A DNA stretch of 64,000 bases from a filamentous cyanobacterium CCP2 (GTDB taxonomy: Bacteria; Cyanobacteriota; Cyanobacteriia; Elainellales; Elainellaceae). A program made the translations under genes and the position numbers. The stretch is from contig PVWD01000005.1 in the NCBI GenBank assembly GCA_003003615.1, positions 1-64,000 on the forward strand, in the 5' to 3' direction. The first letter of the stretch is position 1. Every line of letters begins with the position of its first letter. Below, one piece after another: positions 15,581 to 24,407 of this stretch. Below the pieces are notes generated by a model. It worked only from the letters and a program-made list of their open reading frames with translations, was not told the origin of the DNA and did not search any database.

Positions 15581-17695
15581 TTATCTATACTTATCTGTTG
15601 CCATAGGAGCATAGGGTGTCATCAGCGTTTGGTGGGTGTGGGAAAGAATTGTATCCAGGAAATGCTGTAGCTGCTTGTGTTGGTGTGGATTGAGGTAATA
15701 CCGATCGCCCCGTTTTTGAAAGAGCGGAGCCTGAACCACCTGATAGCTGGGGTGTTGTAGAGAGGCTGCGGTGAAGAGAGACATGTCGCGTTCTGAAGGA
15801 ACTAAGCCGGGAGGTAAATGCCCTTCTAGCAGAGCGAGAATGTGAGACTGGCAGCCTGCTGTCTGAATGCCGCTTTGCTCTAGGCAGCCTAGGATCGCCT
15901 TGAATGTCGCAGGATGCTTGGGAACGTTTCGCAAAAGTGCCAGAAGCAGAAAATAATCATTAAATTGATGTCGCGATACATCCAGCAACCGAGGATATAG
16001 CGGCAACACGGCCAGCCCATAGGCAACCCGACTACAGCTAAACATACAGTTCTCCTGAGGACTGCTGGGTCGGGTATAAGTATCTTGAATAATGACTGCA
16101 TTGGGCAGCTTTTGGCGAAGCCACCGAGCAATTCCGCCCATTGAAGCCGTCCCACCCGTACAAATGACTTGATTCACCTCTGGAGGGGTGACTCCGGTTT
16201 GCTTCAGTACTGCATTTAGCTCCCGGTTCAGCCGTTGAATGTAAGGTAGCAGTACTTTCGTGCCCAAGTCCTGTCGCAAGATCACCCAAATCCGATCGCC
16301 CAGTTGTAACGTCAAGTAGCTTTGCTGTTGCAAGGTTCTCTTAAGGAAACAGGCCGCCTCCAAAAGAGTCTGTCCTGACTGGGAGGCGAATAAACGCTGT
16401 TGCAAACGGTAGCGGTTCGGCAAGTCTGGTTCACCTACGGTGGGCAATGTTAACGTATCCAGCCTCACTGCATCCAAATCCACTGCCCTCAAGCTCAGGT
16501 CAATCCGATCGAGTTGCCGAGTATCAACGGGCTGCGGCTGCTGCAAAAGCGGATAAAGCAACTGACAAACAATGTCCTGGTCGATCGCGTTTCCGGCAAA
16601 GGGCAAGCTGCGATACGTGATGTCTGCATGGGTCAGGGTATCCAATTCAGCAGGCAAATTGACCAATGCCAATTCAGTCATGCTGGCACCTGCATTTAAG
16701 ACCAATGTATATCCTTGCCAGTCAGCATTTTGCAAAATGATGCTTTGCTCTGGTGGAGGTGTAGGACGGAAAGCAGGCTGTTCAAGGGCAGAAGGCTGTC
16801 CGGGGTTGCTTCCCTGCCGCCGCAAGACAGACAACAGCGTGGCGATCGTATCTTCCACGAAGAAAATCTGTTCAGGTTGAGCCACTAGTCCAGCCGCCAA
16901 AATGCTTTCTCGCAGGTTAAAGCTATACGTATCCGACCAGTTGGCAGGATAACCAACCACAACGCCCGACAACTGATGCAAAGCATTCTGCAATGCCTGC
17001 TCCTCTAATCCCAACGCCCCACAAGTCAAAATTCCCTTTGTGCTACGGGACGGCTGCTTGAAAGTCCTCAGCAATGCCTGGAAAGCCTTAAGCAGCCAAA
17101 CGAGAGGAAGTGTCTGCTGTTCCGACCACTGCAATATTGGTTCCCATTGATTTGTCTGCTCAGACCAATAAGGAATGCCAACCCGAAGATAGGGTTTAAG
17201 CTGTTGGATAAAGAAATCAGCAGGAAACTCTTCCTGGCTCATATCAGGCATTTCATGAACCGGCACGGCAATACCCAGCCGATCGGACTGTGGTTGAAGC
17301 ACAGGGGGCTGCCCACCGCCTTTTTCTGGCACAAACTCGGACATTAAGGACACCACTATGGGAAGCCGGAACCGTCGCCCTTGGCTTTCGTTTGGCGGCA
17401 TCGTCTCAGAAGTAGAAGTTGCCCAGTACAAAGGATAAACCTGCTCTGTGATTGGATTCAACAACACCGCAGACAGTCCCGTTGTCCCCACATCAATTCC
17501 TAAAATCCATCCCTTTGTCGATTCGTCAGAAACCAGCTGCAATGGCGGCGGTACGCTCCACCAGCTACGATTCTGCGGAGATGTTGAGGCGATCGGTTCT
17601 GGGTTGAATACTGGGTCTAATTCCAGTCCTGATGCTTCTTCCAGCCCTGATGCCCCTGGGCTATCTCCCAACAAATCCCGGATGAGGTCAGCCAC
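15581..17695 (-). CDS. Hsp70/actin-like ATPase (probable C-terminal part of a larger protein)
   Basis: Actin/Hsp70-fold ATPase module. Phosphate-1 loop: GWILGIDVGTTGLSAVLLN (residues 62-80). Connect-like FVEDTIATLLSVL; phosphate-2-like VLNAGASMTELALVNL; adenosine motif VICTGGTASMGGIARWLRQKLP. The only in-frame start is a GTG at 17695 with no Shine-Dalgarno in front (CAAATCGATGGTACT precedes it). The reading frame stays open for 40 more codons upstream (to 17815), with acidic, Ser/Thr-rich residues like those of the upstream gene, and reaches back exactly to a run of ten A where the upstream protein's frame ends. This suggests the two are one protein joined by a +1 frame change, split either by a sequencing error or by real recoding. 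Client and role unknown. Confidence 0.8.
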   Translation of the reverse strand: MADLIRDLLGDSPGASGLEEASGLELDPVFNPEPIASTSPQNRSWWSVPPPLQLVSDESTKGWILGIDVGTTGLSAVLLNPITEQVYPLYWATSTSETMPPNESQGRRFRLPIVVSLMSEFVPEKGGGQPPVLQPQSDRLGIAVPVHEMPDMSQEEFPADFFIQQLKPYLRVGIPYWSEQTNQWEPILQWSEQQTLPLVWLLKAFQALLRTFKQPSRSTKGILTCGALGLEEQALQNALHQLSGVVVGYPANWSDTYSFNLRESILAAGLVAQPEQIFFVEDTIATLLSVLRRQGSNPGQPSALEQPAFRPTPPPEQSIILQNADWQGYTLVLNAGASMTELALVNLPAELDTLTHADITYRSLPFAGNAIDQDIVCQLLYPLLQQPQPVDTRQLDRIDLSLRAVDLDAVRLDTLTLPTVGEPDLPNRYRLQQRLFASQSGQTLLEAACFLKRTLQQQSYLTLQLGDRIWVILRQDLGTKVLLPYIQRLNRELNAVLKQTGVTPPEVNQVICTGGTASMGGIARWLRQKLPNAVIIQDTYTRPSSPQENCMFSCSRVAYGLAVLPLYPRLLDVSRHQFNDYFLLLALLRNVPKHPATFKAILGCLEQSGIQTAGCQSHILALLEGHLPPGLVPSERDMSLFTAASLQHPSYQVVQAPLFQKRGDRYYLNPHQHKQLQHFLDTILSHTHQTLMTPYAPMATDKYR

Positions 17696-17786
17696 AGTAC
17701 CATCGATTTGAATAGATTCAGATTGAATGGATTCAGCATCCGCCAGAGGAAGGGAAACTTCAGCAGCTGAATCATCCGTCCAATCA

Positions 17787-20693
17787 TCACTGGGTGTTGT
17801 CTCTGGGGTTAAACTTTTTTTTTTCTACCTCCGCATGGCTCGGAGGGAAAGAAGAATGAGGCTCGACATCCTCTGGGGGCGGCGAATTGGATGAGTTTGA
17901 AAAATCACTAAATGCATCGTCAATGGTAATCCGCTGGGTATCGGTTTCGGACGGTTTGCGTGGAGGGGGAGGAGCCGTCCCTTCAAACAAGCTTTCTAGA
18001 CCATCTAGGGTGAAGGTACTGTCATTCTCATTCGATGGTGCCACTTCCCGCCCGCCCAATGCCGAATGCTCCCTTTGCACATCATTTTTGGCAGCTTCTG
18101 GTGTAACTGCTGGGTCAGCCTCGACGTTGGCAAACCAGTCTTCCAGGGTAGACTCCATCACGTCATTTGAGCCTGGCGAATCTGGACTTGCTGTCTGCGC
18201 ACCCTCAAAAGGATCTGCGAAAGATGGATCAGCGGGGGTATTGTTGGCAAACCGATCGCTAAACAACCATTCCTCAATGCTCAAGGGAGAAGCTTGGGAA
18301 GCTGAGGCTGCATCAGGATCGGCATCGACTGTCCAGTCTGATGTTTGAAATATTTGTGGCTCAGAGGTTTCTTGTCGCTCAGAGGCTTCTGGAGGGTTGG
18401 GCTGCTGCGATCGTTCAACGGCTTCTGTCCAGTCTGCTAGCGTCCATCCCTGCGTCACTTCTCCAGGTGGGTTTCCCCCTTCCAGGTTAGATAAGTCGTT
18501 TGTTAGCTGCTGTAGGGTGTTTTCAGGCAAACGAAGGTCGAGTGCTGCGTCGGGCGGGGGAGGTTCAGTAATCAGCAGGTCTTCTTCTGGATGCGCCGTT
18601 TCATATTCTTCTTGGGGAAATGCCATGCCAGACATCGCGTTGTTCGGTGTATCGGCTCTGCCCGTTTCAGCCACGTCATCGGGAAGCAAATCAGTCAGAG
18701 ACGTAATGGTTTCGGCATTGGCTTCTGATGGTTCTGGGTCAATGCCGCCCAACGGGTCTGGGATCTCTTCATCCAGAAAATTGTCCAGGGTTAGAGGGTC
18801 TGCGGTTGGGGGTTCTGGCTGTTGTAAAAGGAACTGTTCAACCGATTGTGGCAGATCGCGGTTTACAGAAAATTGTTCAAAGGGGAATGGCTCGTTGGGA
18901 GCGGAAGCGGCTTCCTGAGACGGGTCAGCCAATCCGGCAAATAGATCAGGATCAATGTTGACTGCTGGGTCAGTGTTAGCTGCTGGCGTTTCCAGAAGGT
19001 TTTGCCCAGGGGAATTCTCCACCGGCAGCGCAAAGGGTTCTGTTTCAGATGCATCCCTGCCTTCAGTCTGGCTCTCTTCCGGCTGTTCCGTTTCAGGCTG
19101 CCCAAACAAATCTTGATAGAACGCATCTTCATAGAGGTTGTCCGGCGATGACACAAGCGGCGGCTTGGATGGCAACGCTTTTGCCGTGCCACTGGTTGCA
19201 TCCTTTAAAGGGGCATCATCTTCAGCATCGATCGGCGGAGTAGGAAGCTGGCTGAGCAAATCCAAGGCCGAGTCTAGGTCGTCGCTTTGCGATTCTGTGG
19301 CGGGAAAGCCTGGTTGCGATGAATCGTTTGCTTCCCCCTCAAACCAGTGGTTTCGCTCACCTTCATCCAAGCGAGACGGAAAAGGAAAAGGTTGCTCTTC
19401 TGTTGAAATCCGGTTTACATCTACACCAGGCTCGATCGACGAGGGAGCATCCGAAAACTCTGCTGCAAACTCTGAGAGATCGAGCTGGCTCAATTCGCGA
19501 TCGAGTTCTGCTAGGCGATCACGTTCCGTCTCTGGCGAAAGGGAAGAGGAATCATCCAACTCAAATGGAACGGGTTCCCCTAATGCCGTTTGGTTCAAAC
19601 CAGACTGATCTAGGGCATTTAATTCTTCTAAAAGGCGAGTGATTTGGCTATCAGGATCATTTCGTGCGGCGGTTTGGTTGTCTTGCCCTGGAAGGGTGCG
19701 GGCCGGGTCGCCATAGGCTAACCGTTGATCCTCTGCCCAATGTCCTGCCTGGGATGGAGTTTGTAAAAATGAGGAAGCTTCCCGTCCCAAAATTTGTGCT
19801 AGTCGAGTCACAAACGCTGCAAAAACGGCTTCCCCCTGCTGCCCCATGTCATGCATTCGCCCTAAGCCTTCCCCCAAAGAGTCCTGGTAGCTTTGCAGGT
19901 TTCGCTGAAGGGACTCAAAAACAACGCGGAGGGTCGTATCCAGCTTTAGCAACAGTTGGTCAGACTGTGCCTGAAGGGACTGCAACCGCTTGAGCCGTTC
20001 GGCCGGACTCAGGGTAGACAAATCTGCTGCTCCTAAAGCTCCGATCGCCTCAGAACTTTGTAATTGCTGGGTATGTGCCGCCTGAACCGTAACCGCTGCC
20101 ATCATTTGGGCAACTTGTCCGGAAAGATTTTCCTGAATCTGCGCCATTGCTGACTGAAGAAAGTCCTTCAGATACTCTGGGGGAGGGGTCATTAAATATT
20201 GCTGACGCTGCATCTCCAACCGGCGCACTTCCTGCAATAACGCATCTCGCTGATGTTGCAACACGGCCACATCCGATTGCATCGGTTGCAGCATATTCGT
20301 TCGCAGGTAGGTCATTTCCTGCAACACAGCTTGCAAGACCTGTTGAGCCGATGCTTCCGCTGATGCAGTTCCACCCTCAACGGTTGGAATTGGCTTAGGG
20401 CTAGAAACGGCTGTCTCAGGTTTTTGTTCAGAACCAGACCCGCCAGACCCACCTGACCCCTCGCGCTGTTGCAACGATAAAAGGTATCGCCGAGTCTGCT
20501 CTAAAACCTGACGCTGCTGTGCGGCATCACTCGACATGACCCAAGGCAAACGAGGACTGGTTCGACTCAGAACTTCGTCAATTTGATGAATCAGGGTTTG
20601 GATTTGAGGGGTTTCGGAAGTCACGACGGGATCTCTGACGAATAACGTTTCAGGCAAATACCAAAAGGACGGAATTTGCAGTGAAGAAGCCAT
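17787..20693 (-). CDS. Coiled-coil protein with acidic short-motif repeats
   Basis: Unrecognised. From the ATG at 20693 (968 residues; a longer in-frame start would add 41 unlikely residues) the layout is: a small N-terminal domain (SFWYLPETLFVRDP, to about 75), a Gly/Ser linker (about 79-89), a long Gln-rich helical/coiled-coil region (about 117-300), and then more than 600 residues of acidic, Pro/Ser-rich, probably disordered chain. That chain repeats short amphipathic units of the form [TS]-[LI]-[DE]-x-[LFW], for example LTLDNFLDEE, LSIEEWLFSD, STLEDWFANV, FTLDGLESLF, ITIDDAFSDF. After the A10 tract the last eight residues (FNPRDNTQ) break the pattern and hit a stop. The downstream Hsp70-like frame resumes the same composition at once. 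Function unknown; a scaffold or client-binding arm is a guess. Confidence 0.75.
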   Translation of the reverse strand: MASSLQIPSFWYLPETLFVRDPVVTSETPQIQTLIHQIDEVLSRTSPRLPWVMSSDAAQQRQVLEQTRRYLLSLQQREGSGGSGGSGSEQKPETAVSSPKPIPTVEGGTASAEASAQQVLQAVLQEMTYLRTNMLQPMQSDVAVLQHQRDALLQEVRRLEMQRQQYLMTPPPEYLKDFLQSAMAQIQENLSGQVAQMMAAVTVQAAHTQQLQSSEAIGALGAADLSTLSPAERLKRLQSLQAQSDQLLLKLDTTLRVVFESLQRNLQSYQDSLGEGLGRMHDMGQQGEAVFAAFVTRLAQILGREASSFLQTPSQAGHWAEDQRLAYGDPARTLPGQDNQTAARNDPDSQITRLLEELNALDQSGLNQTALGEPVPFELDDSSSLSPETERDRLAELDRELSQLDLSEFAAEFSDAPSSIEPGVDVNRISTEEQPFPFPSRLDEGERNHWFEGEANDSSQPGFPATESQSDDLDSALDLLSQLPTPPIDAEDDAPLKDATSGTAKALPSKPPLVSSPDNLYEDAFYQDLFGQPETEQPEESQTEGRDASETEPFALPVENSPGQNLLETPAANTDPAVNIDPDLFAGLADPSQEAASAPNEPFPFEQFSVNRDLPQSVEQFLLQQPEPPTADPLTLDNFLDEEIPDPLGGIDPEPSEANAETITSLTDLLPDDVAETGRADTPNNAMSGMAFPQEEYETAHPEEDLLITEPPPPDAALDLRLPENTLQQLTNDLSNLEGGNPPGEVTQGWTLADWTEAVERSQQPNPPEASERQETSEPQIFQTSDWTVDADPDAASASQASPLSIEEWLFSDRFANNTPADPSFADPFEGAQTASPDSPGSNDVMESTLEDWFANVEADPAVTPEAAKNDVQREHSALGGREVAPSNENDSTFTLDGLESLFEGTAPPPPRKPSETDTQRITIDDAFSDFSNSSNSPPPEDVEPHSSFPPSHAEVEKKKFNPRDNTQ
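17815..17824 (-). other. A10 homopolymer at the frame junction of the two ORFs
   Basis: Coding-strand sequence AGGTAG, ten A, then GTTTAACC. The upstream gene reads GTA GAA AAA AAA AAG TTT; the downstream frame reads TAG AAA AAA AAA AGT TTA, being open from just after this TAG. Loss of one A, or a +1 slip, makes a continuous frame of about 1,703 codons. Confidence 0.9.
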
Positions 20694-20780
20694 GATTGCC
20701 CTACCTGGGCAATTACCGCCTAATACTAACGCTATCTTGCCCAACCGGAACAGAAAACTTGATAGGGGTGCAATAGAGAA

Positions 20781-20804
20781 GGGCACACAATGACATGTGT
20801 GCCC
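20781..20804. other. Perfect 9-bp inverted repeat
   Basis: GGGCACACA (20781-20789), six-base loop, TGTGTGCCC (20796-20804). It lies between the 129-residue gene and the coiled-coil gene, upstream of the latter's start. No U-run follows on either strand, so it may be an operator or a weak terminator. Confidence 0.55.
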
Positions 20805-20860
20805 CAGGTTCACCACCCAAATCTATCAGTAAAGTTGGCAGGAACTATGCATCGGCAAAG

Positions 20861-21250
20861 CTATGCAAGCGTTTCAGGACAGTATCCTAGCCCCTGCACA
20901 AACTGCTTCCGAAATTCTTCGATTTCCCGGTGATCCGGACTTCCATGTGAAACGACAGCGACTTGATAGCGGCGCATTACCTCCACGGGAGACTGCCCAG
21001 TCTCCAATCCCCAAAGTGCCATCCGAACTCGAATTTCAGGCTCGTAAGGAATGCCTAATTCGTTTAAGAAGGAGCGAAAATCCCCATCTTCTCTTGGATC
21101 GAGCGGACGATGTAGTTTAATCTTGATAACCCATCCATCAATCTGATGAATTACCGTCATAAACCGGACTGGAAGCCAGGGCATAGTATGGAGGAATTCA
21201 ACTACCCTCAAAGTCAGACTGGCATTCGCGAGGTAATAGAGATATTCCAT
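20861..21250 (-). CDS. Conserved-looking hypothetical protein, 129 aa
   Basis: Unrecognised small protein. I chose the ATG at 21250 because AGGAG stands 8 nt upstream (CCAGGAGTGCTTAT before ATG); a further upstream in-frame start would add 17 residues without that signal. The protein opens MEYLYYLANASLTLRVVEFLHTMPWLPVRFM, a mixed helical/hydrophobic N-terminus without a clear signal peptide, followed by a soluble region with DGWVIKIKLHRPLDPRED and a C-terminal segment VEVMRRYQVAVVSHGSPDHREIEEFRKQFVQGLG. No catalytic motif is evident. It lies upstream of the coiled-coil gene on the same strand with a 167-nt gap that contains an inverted repeat. Confidence 0.6.
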   Translation of the reverse strand: MEYLYYLANASLTLRVVEFLHTMPWLPVRFMTVIHQIDGWVIKIKLHRPLDPREDGDFRSFLNELGIPYEPEIRVRMALWGLETGQSPVEVMRRYQVAVVSHGSPDHREIEEFRKQFVQGLGYCPETLA

Positions 21251-21453
21251 ATAAGCACTCCTGGCAAATGCTACACTCTTATCTTCGCGAGAAGCTACCA
21301 AACTTACTAGGGGAGAAGCCCCCGCCGTGACATGGGGGATCTACCCAATCTAAAAGAAAGATTGAAGAATAGAAATATGGCAAGGTTGAGGCGATCGAAC
21401 GAAACGAGGTGTTCGTAAGCCTTCGAGTAAATCGGTAAAGTGAGCCGGAAGAG

Positions 21454-23279: not shown

Positions 23280-23801
23280 TCACTTCTTAGGAGCCAAAAG
23301 CATCATCATTCGGTGTCCTTCCCGCTTCGGAGCCTGCTGAATGTCAGCGGTTTCTTGCAAATCTGCCGCCATGCGTTTTAATAAATCTTCAGCAAGGTCT
23401 TCATGCTGCCGCTCTCGTCCTCGGAAGGTGATGGTCGCTTTTACCTTATCGCCATCCTTGATGAACTTCTCAGCCCGATTCACGCGAACGTTATAGTCGT
23501 GTTCTTCAATTTTGTACCGCATCTTCACTTCCTTCACCTTAGAAGTGTGCTGATTTTTGCGGGCTTTGCGCTGTTTTTTCTGTTGTTCAAATTTGAATTT
23601 GCCATAGTCCATGACTCGACAAACCGGCGGATTGGCTTTATCGCTGACTAAAACAAGATCCAACTCTCGTTCTTTGGCAATTTCCACAGCTTCTTTAGGA
23701 GCCATAATCCCCAGTTCATTGCCATCGGTGTCAATGACTCGGATTTCAGGAAATCGAATGCGTTCGTTGATGGTCGGTAAGTTTTGGTTTCGTTTGATCA
23801 T
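23280..23801 (-). CDS. infC: Translation initiation factor IF-3, diverged second copy
   Basis: IF-3 binds the 30S subunit, keeps it apart from 50S and checks initiator tRNA/start codon pairing. The 173-residue product has both domains: N-terminal [23 protein letters not shown] to about residue 75, the Lys-rich linker, and C-terminal [19 protein letters not shown] through [24 protein letters not shown]. It is a near-copy of the gene 75 nt upstream (by eye roughly three quarters identical), but departs from the usual cyanobacterial sequence at several normally constant places (RERQH instead of REIQH, EGHRMMM instead of [20 protein letters not shown]). It therefore looks like the derived paralogue. 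ATG start. Confidence 0.93.
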
Positions 23802-23876: not shown

Positions 23877-24407
23877 TCACTTTTTGGGGGCTAGTAACAT
23901 CATCATGTTACGCCCTTCTTTCTTGGGAGCCTGCTGAACCTCAGCAAGTTCCTGCAAGTCTTTAGCCATCCGCTTCAGCAGTGTTTCAGCGAGATCGACG
24001 TGCTGGATCTCTCGTCCCCGGAAGGTAATCGTCGCCTTCACCTTATCTCCAGCTTTAAGAAACCGTTCTGCTTGGTTAACGCGAACGTTATAGTCATGCT
24101 CTTCGATCTTATAACGCATCTTCACTTCCTTGACATCAGAAGTGTGCTGCTTCTTGCGAGCTTCCCGGGCTTTTTTCTCCTGCTCAAATTTGAACTTCCC
24201 ATAGTCCATAATTCGGCAGACCGGCGGATCGGCTTTGTCGCTTACCAACACCAGATCAAGCTCTTTTTCTTCGGCCATTCTCAGAGCTTCACGGGGGGTC
24301 ATAATACCTAGCTGACCACCATCTGTGTCAATCACCCTAATCTTTGGAAATCGAATGCGCTCATTAATGGTCGGTAAATCCCGGTTTTGTCTAGTCAAAG
24401 GCGGCAT
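23877..24407 (-). CDS. infC: Translation initiation factor IF-3, canonical copy
   Basis: The 176-residue product follows the standard cyanobacterial IF-3 pattern: [33 protein letters not shown] at the N-terminus, [29 protein letters not shown] in the linker, then [51 protein letters not shown] and the ending [13 protein letters not shown]. The start is ATG rather than the AUU used for autoregulation in enterobacteria, so that feedback mode is not expected. The gene is not next to rpmI-rplT, which sit 23 kb away. A terminator separates it from the second copy. Confidence 0.96.

Follow-up and report, generated by a model that had tools for sequence, protein, structure and literature searches.

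The window, that is, the whole 64,000-nucleotide stretch of cyanobacterial DNA that was analysed, carries on its minus strand a run of ten A (17815..17824), a putative slip site, between an ORF for a coiled-coil/acidic protein and the frame of an Hsp70-like ATPase (all features of this locus are on the minus strand). The upstream ORF (17787..20816) encodes 1,009 residues from a GTG at 20816 or 968 residues from an ATG at 20693. It comprises a conserved N-terminal domain of 304 residues, predicted to be an all-helical coiled coil (19782..20693), followed by an acidic linker rich in Ser, Thr, Pro and Ala, the length and sequence of which vary between species (17825..19781). Past the run, the unslipped frame reads ...VEKKKFNPRDNTQ-stop, closing at a TGA eight codons 3' of the run (17787..17789), and the unslipped product ends in KKKFNPRDNTQ. 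The third frame is closed directly behind the run by a TAA (17809..17811), at which transcripts carrying one extra A would terminate as ...KKKV-stop. The downstream frame is opened by a TAG overlapping the first A of the run and then continues for 747 codons without a stop, from the run through the end of the ATPase (15581..17824). It encodes a further 101 residues of acidic linker devoid of ATG (17510..17814) and a 642-residue Hsp70/actin-fold nucleotide-binding domain with the motif WILGIDVGTTG (15584..17509). Fusion of the two parts requires one A fewer or two A more; the segment from ATG 20693 to 15581 minus one base encodes 1,703 residues, and the predicted peptides across the junction are VEKKSLTPETTPSDDW or VEKKKSLTPETTPSDDW.

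An initial annotation, made from the sequence alone, had described most of this arrangement correctly. The A10 run joining the two reading frames, the end of the upstream frame eight codons past it, the ATPase frame open from the run, the protein of about 1,703 residues produced by a one-base change and the acidic composition retained 3' of the run all held. With regard to the last, the acidic make-up of the linker continues across the run in the ATPase frame, Asp and Glu accounting for 20.7% of residues before the run, 18.0% after it and 9.4% in the ATPase itself. The claim that a GTG is the only candidate start of the downstream frame failed: in addition to GTG 17695, 39 codons past the run, TTG codons occur at 46, 47 and 90 codons, though no ATG is present between the run and the ATPase domain in the window.

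The two parts of the protein differ in how much can be said about them. The N-terminal domain shows 44-59% identity among 14 aligned orthologues; its AlphaFold2 model is all helix but of low confidence (pTM 0.25), and sequence searches of PDB, Pfam and NCBIfam returned no informative match. The model of the C-terminal domain is good (pLDDT 84.9, pTM 0.88) and, in a Foldseek search, matches Hsp70 nucleotide-binding folds, including Ssz1/RAC (5mb9, E 1.7e-13) and the DnaK NBD (7rax, TM 0.67 by target length). The domain thus shares the fold of the Hsp70/DnaK nucleotide-binding domain and of PilM, a member of the actin superfamily, and the earlier Hsp70-like label held on the basis of the structure model and the fold match. 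It differs from these proteins in that identity to the structural matches is only 12-14%, no Hsp70 Pfam family was matched, and weak PilM_2, BcrAD_BadFG and HscA hits all fell below Pfam/NCBIfam cut-offs. Further, unlike in Hsp70/DnaK, a long coiled-coil/acidic N-terminal part takes the place of the C-terminal substrate domain. The phosphate-1 Asp/Gly is invariant in 30 sequences, and Glu219 and GG452-453 are kept, but 27 of the 30 have Asn, Ser or some other residue in place of the phosphate-2 Asp. ATP hydrolysis is therefore not assured.

Gene context yields no function, since the 146-residue ORF just upstream (20861-21301) and the other neighbours in the window have essentially no relatives in the fetched orthologous loci. 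Elsewhere in the window, two adjacent minus-strand ORFs (23280-23801 and 23877-24407) both resemble translation initiation factor IF-3 and appear as tandem copies of similar sequence.

The ATPase was searched for in 390 cyanobacterial genomes, one per species, and was present in 193 of them, representing 83 of 157 genera; it was not found in the sampled other classes of the phylum. The region 5' of the ATPase was fetched for approximately 135 loci, and in 133 of these the frames and runs were measured by script. The N-terminal domain was detected by tblastn in 108 of the 135, the remainder being mostly short contigs or distant lineages. A run of nine to eleven A occupies the same junction in 67 of the 133 loci, spanning 45 genera and at least 15 families, with A10 in 48, A9 in 11 and A11 in 8 loci; A8 was never seen, nor was A12 or longer. 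The run lies at the end of the linker between the N-terminal domain and the ATPase (at a median of 92% of the distance, with 58 residues left to the ATPase motif), and it is kept although the surrounding linkers are unconserved and do not align. These comparisons show directly that both protein parts are orthologous and that the run between them is conserved.

Runs of this kind are otherwise rare. Every other A/T run in the window is of seven or fewer nucleotides, and the genome from which the window derives (6.95 Mb in 528 contigs) contains about ten A/T runs of nine or more on both strands (twelve overlapping A9 matches), only two of which reach A10. Across 1.15 Mb of orthologous loci there are three other A runs and four other T runs of at least nine, and 155 kb of linker contained no further A/T run of that length. 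Lys is rare in the linkers, no second Lys-Lys-Lys was found in these proteins, and about half of the Lys codons outside the run are AAG (598 AAA vs. 531 AAG). Separately, an A9 at contig C336:5333-5341 of genome G000 (locus L084), with a 91-codon frame upstream and, in a different phase, a 180-codon frame downstream, is a candidate second slip site; relatives of the downstream part exist in several copies per genome, and the fetched loci share no common A run.

The frame written in the DNA is not uniform among run-bearing loci. Fusion would require a change of +1 (or -2) in the RNA at 40 of the 67 loci and of -1 (or +2) at 11, the window included, while the remaining 16 are already fused in the DNA. 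On a tree of the ATPase, which was built by a quick method and has some long branches, at least 17 phase changes were counted among run-bearing rows, together with 12 transitions between presence and absence of the run. Frame class is uncertain on truncated contigs (e.g. G117 and G261), and in G014, G150 and G201 the open upstream frame near the run is shorter (53-133 codons). The nearer stop in the non-ATPase frames lies a median of 4 nt past the run, vs. 14 nt at control positions in the linker, which are a fairer control than positions inside the ATPase and give a smaller effect. The frames and the nearby stops are, like the conservation of the run, shown rather than inferred.

The same two parts occur in three arrangements, namely with a slip site, as a permanent fusion and as split genes. 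One long ORF without a run is found in families f13, f20, f22, f23 and part of f31. Two separate genes are found in genus g144 of family f33 and in single members of f36 and f37, where the ATPase has its own ATG beside the motif WYLGID. In three loci of g144 (L145, L152 and L154), short tandem repeats with many stops (e.g. CTGTTGACTGATAA) separate the upstream gene from the ATPase, and relatives from the same family carry the A run where these repeats stand.

Within the variable acidic linker, conserved short hydrophobic motifs of the types FTLEGLxxLF and TLDDxFxxF occur near the end of the short product in families f1, f16, f24 and f33. In the window they span 17901-18014, as FTLDGLESLF (17985..18014, minus strand), of a type common in f1 and f16, and TIDDAFSDF (17901..17927, minus strand). 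An FTLEGLxxLF-type motif located about 53 residues before the run is present in 35 of 59 run-bearing linkers, where shuffling predicts 0.2; of the 37 fused linkers that lack a run, 1 has it. Keeping in mind that this motif is almost confined to f1 and f16, the contrast may reflect kinship.

Considering that the junction is a homopolymer within a 528-contig draft, an assembly error or a decaying pseudogene was an obvious concern, and two loci, L060 (G007) and L101 (G274), do have a second frame break within the ATPase domain besides the A run, which may represent assembly errors or decay. This explanation is refuted as a general one and can be all but excluded: 67 parallel cases show the run at this very junction, including single-contig genomes (e.g. 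G008, G029, G032, G047, G141, G154, G189 and G257), both parts are conserved, and the ATPase is free of stops in nearly all loci. The assembly-error option left standing by the initial annotation is hence removed by comparison with other cyanobacteria. It is also very unlikely that the run is incidental and that the ATPase is a separate gene starting independently inside the linker. Such a reading can draw on the truly split lineages, with an ATG adjoining WYLGID, and on the GTG 39 codons past the run in the window. Against it, an ATG is missing from the stretch between the run and the W-LGID motif in 32 of the 51 shifted loci, and in 7 of them this stretch is free of GTG and TTG as well, a lack of starts that is directly shown; moreover, it leaves unexplained both the conserved run and the many species with one long ORF. 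Homologues that always encode two separate proteins, with the ATPase starting at the GTG, would have refuted the initial annotation, but this pattern was not seen, only a minority of lineages being split. Also very unlikely, judging from comparisons between species, is phase variation at the DNA level, whereby replication slippage would alter the length of the run and toggle the ATPase on and off between cells. In its favour, the frame junction is a homopolymer, each of the three phases is found in some species, and phase differs inside genera g19, g87 and g78 (in g78 one contig is short and its class uncertain). However, 38 of 41 congeneric species pairs share the same phase, vs. 17.7 expected from shuffled labels, albeit these pairs are not independent, one genus supplying 21 of them. 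In addition, genera g5 (A10 and A11) and g12 (A10 and A9) keep their phase despite differing run length, whereas a switch would toggle; run length is confined to 9-11, with long tracts absent; and the protein lacks surface or restriction-type features.

Programmed ribosomal frameshifting on the run, by one backward step in most species, is a more serious competitor for production of the fusion, but we still consider it unlikely. A -1 ribosomal shift has the same effect as one extra nucleotide in the RNA, and the majority +1 class alone therefore cannot separate polymerase from ribosome. Indeed, A_AAA_AAA is compatible with 40 of the 51 shifted loci, E. coli dnaX offers a model for how the 16 in-frame loci could make the short form, and in chloroplasts ribosomes have been documented to correct at oligo-A (PMC8254509). 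On the other hand, the direction is not constant, as the opposite one is required at 11 of the 51 shifted loci, including the window, and runs are never shorter than nine although heptamers suffice for ribosomes. Furthermore, neither of the stimulators looked for was enriched: RNA structure downstream of the run showed no excess (mean MFE -12.8 vs. -12.1 at control positions, p = 0.35), and SD-like sequences preceded the run in 9% of cases vs. 6% at control positions.

Based on these considerations, we regard the frame-switch at the A run as real and probably programmed, and not as a sequencing error. The explanation we prefer, with a probability of roughly 0.8, is programmed slippage of RNA polymerase, from which one isoform with the ATPase and one without it would result. 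Polymerase is favoured over the ribosome because of the opposite direction class, the lower limit of nine A and the absence of structural or SD-like stimulators. The initial annotation had weighed error, recoding or slippage and phase variation and leaned towards recoding; the comparison supports that leaning, while slippage itself, polymerase as its agent and the co-assembly of isoforms all remain inferences for which there are no RNA or protein data. In this scheme, a single gene would encode a two-part protein in which a coiled coil at the N-terminus is connected through a long, acidic and disordered linker to an Hsp70-like nucleotide-binding domain at the C-terminus, and RNA polymerase would gain or lose A's on the run in part of the transcripts. 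For the window, A9 (or A12) transcripts would be read into the ATPase to give the protein of about 1,703 residues, and A10 and A11 transcripts would meet a stop 8 and 1 codons past the run, respectively, leaving the coiled-coil protein of about 968 residues alone. At the 16 already fused loci the short product would be the slipped one. Because slippage would yield both products from each phase, the DNA of relatives may sit in any of the three. Subunits with and without the ATPase would then be mixed in the cell and co-assemble via the coiled coil; a function for the short product and the joint assembly of long and short chains are likewise inferred in the absence of protein data.

On A7-A11 in E. 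coli, insertions outnumber deletions by a factor of two or more (PMC6260861), a bias that agrees with the predominance of the +1 class. One point against slippage is that the -1 class, including the window, would need the rarer slip for fusion. A further argument against it comes from plastid atpB, in which ribosomes account for most of the correction at an oligo-A and stuttering of the polymerase could not be detected (PMC8254509). The plastid polymerase is of the cyanobacterial type. No report of slippage by cyanobacterial RNA polymerase on A runs was found in the literature searched.

The mechanism class is already known; the novelty lies in the gene, in how widely it is distributed and in how freely the phases are exchanged. 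Only a few bacterial genes, most of them confined to narrow groups, are known to undergo programmed transcriptional slippage. The closest parallels are Citrobacter rodentium tssM1, in which an A11 gives transcripts with 10-15 A and about 20% fusion, and Yersinia pseudotuberculosis tssM3, its mirror arrangement (PMC4256274). As is proposed for the cyanobacterial gene, an A11-type run in these genes leads to a long and a short product from one gene, and slippage yields the long form in one and the short form in the other, so that both arrangements are known. Nevertheless, tssM encodes a type VI secretion membrane protein of a few enterobacteria with slippage shown by experiment, whereas the cyanobacterial gene encodes an unrelated coiled-coil/Hsp70-like protein in many families and lacks experimental support. 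Thermus thermophilus dnaX, which uses transcriptional slippage on A9, resembles our locus in that its A run is soon followed by stops in the other frames (cited in PMC3711429, PMC5009743) and that it yields an oligomer-forming protein with and without its C-terminal part; its product, however, is a clamp-loader subunit of DNA polymerase III of unrelated sequence. Shigella mxiE, spa13, spa33 and mxiA also use A or T runs to make extended or truncated products (cited in PMC5009743), but are unrelated type III secretion genes. Finally, the poly-A frameshift gene clusters of GeneTack share with this family a conserved frame transition at an A run, found by comparison (PMC3711429). That survey covered only 14 cyanobacterial species, and its main text describes no cyanobacterial coiled-coil/Hsp70-like cluster (the supplementary cluster list was not covered here). 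Nor was this gene family, or any conserved cyanobacterial slippage site, described in the literature searched, with most subscription journals outside its scope.

A bolder reading is conceivable, in which the slip ratio itself would be regulated and sensitive to conditions such as temperature, nucleotide pools or polymerase fidelity, and would set the number of coiled-coil subunits bearing an Hsp70-like motor, with the frame written in the DNA having no evolutionary relevance so long as the run is retained. Taken as a whole, including this last claim, we regard it as improbable. Returning to programmed slippage as such, one run has persisted across a large part of a bacterial class, in each of the three phases, beside lineages in which the gene is permanently fused or split. 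These phases and lineages therefore constitute a comparative data set with which one can test what the run does, what limits its length and in which direction it is biased. Automatic annotation would label most of these genes as truncated or split, yet together they make up a large, uncharacterised family of cyanobacterial proteins in which the dosage of the ATPase seems to be set during transcription.
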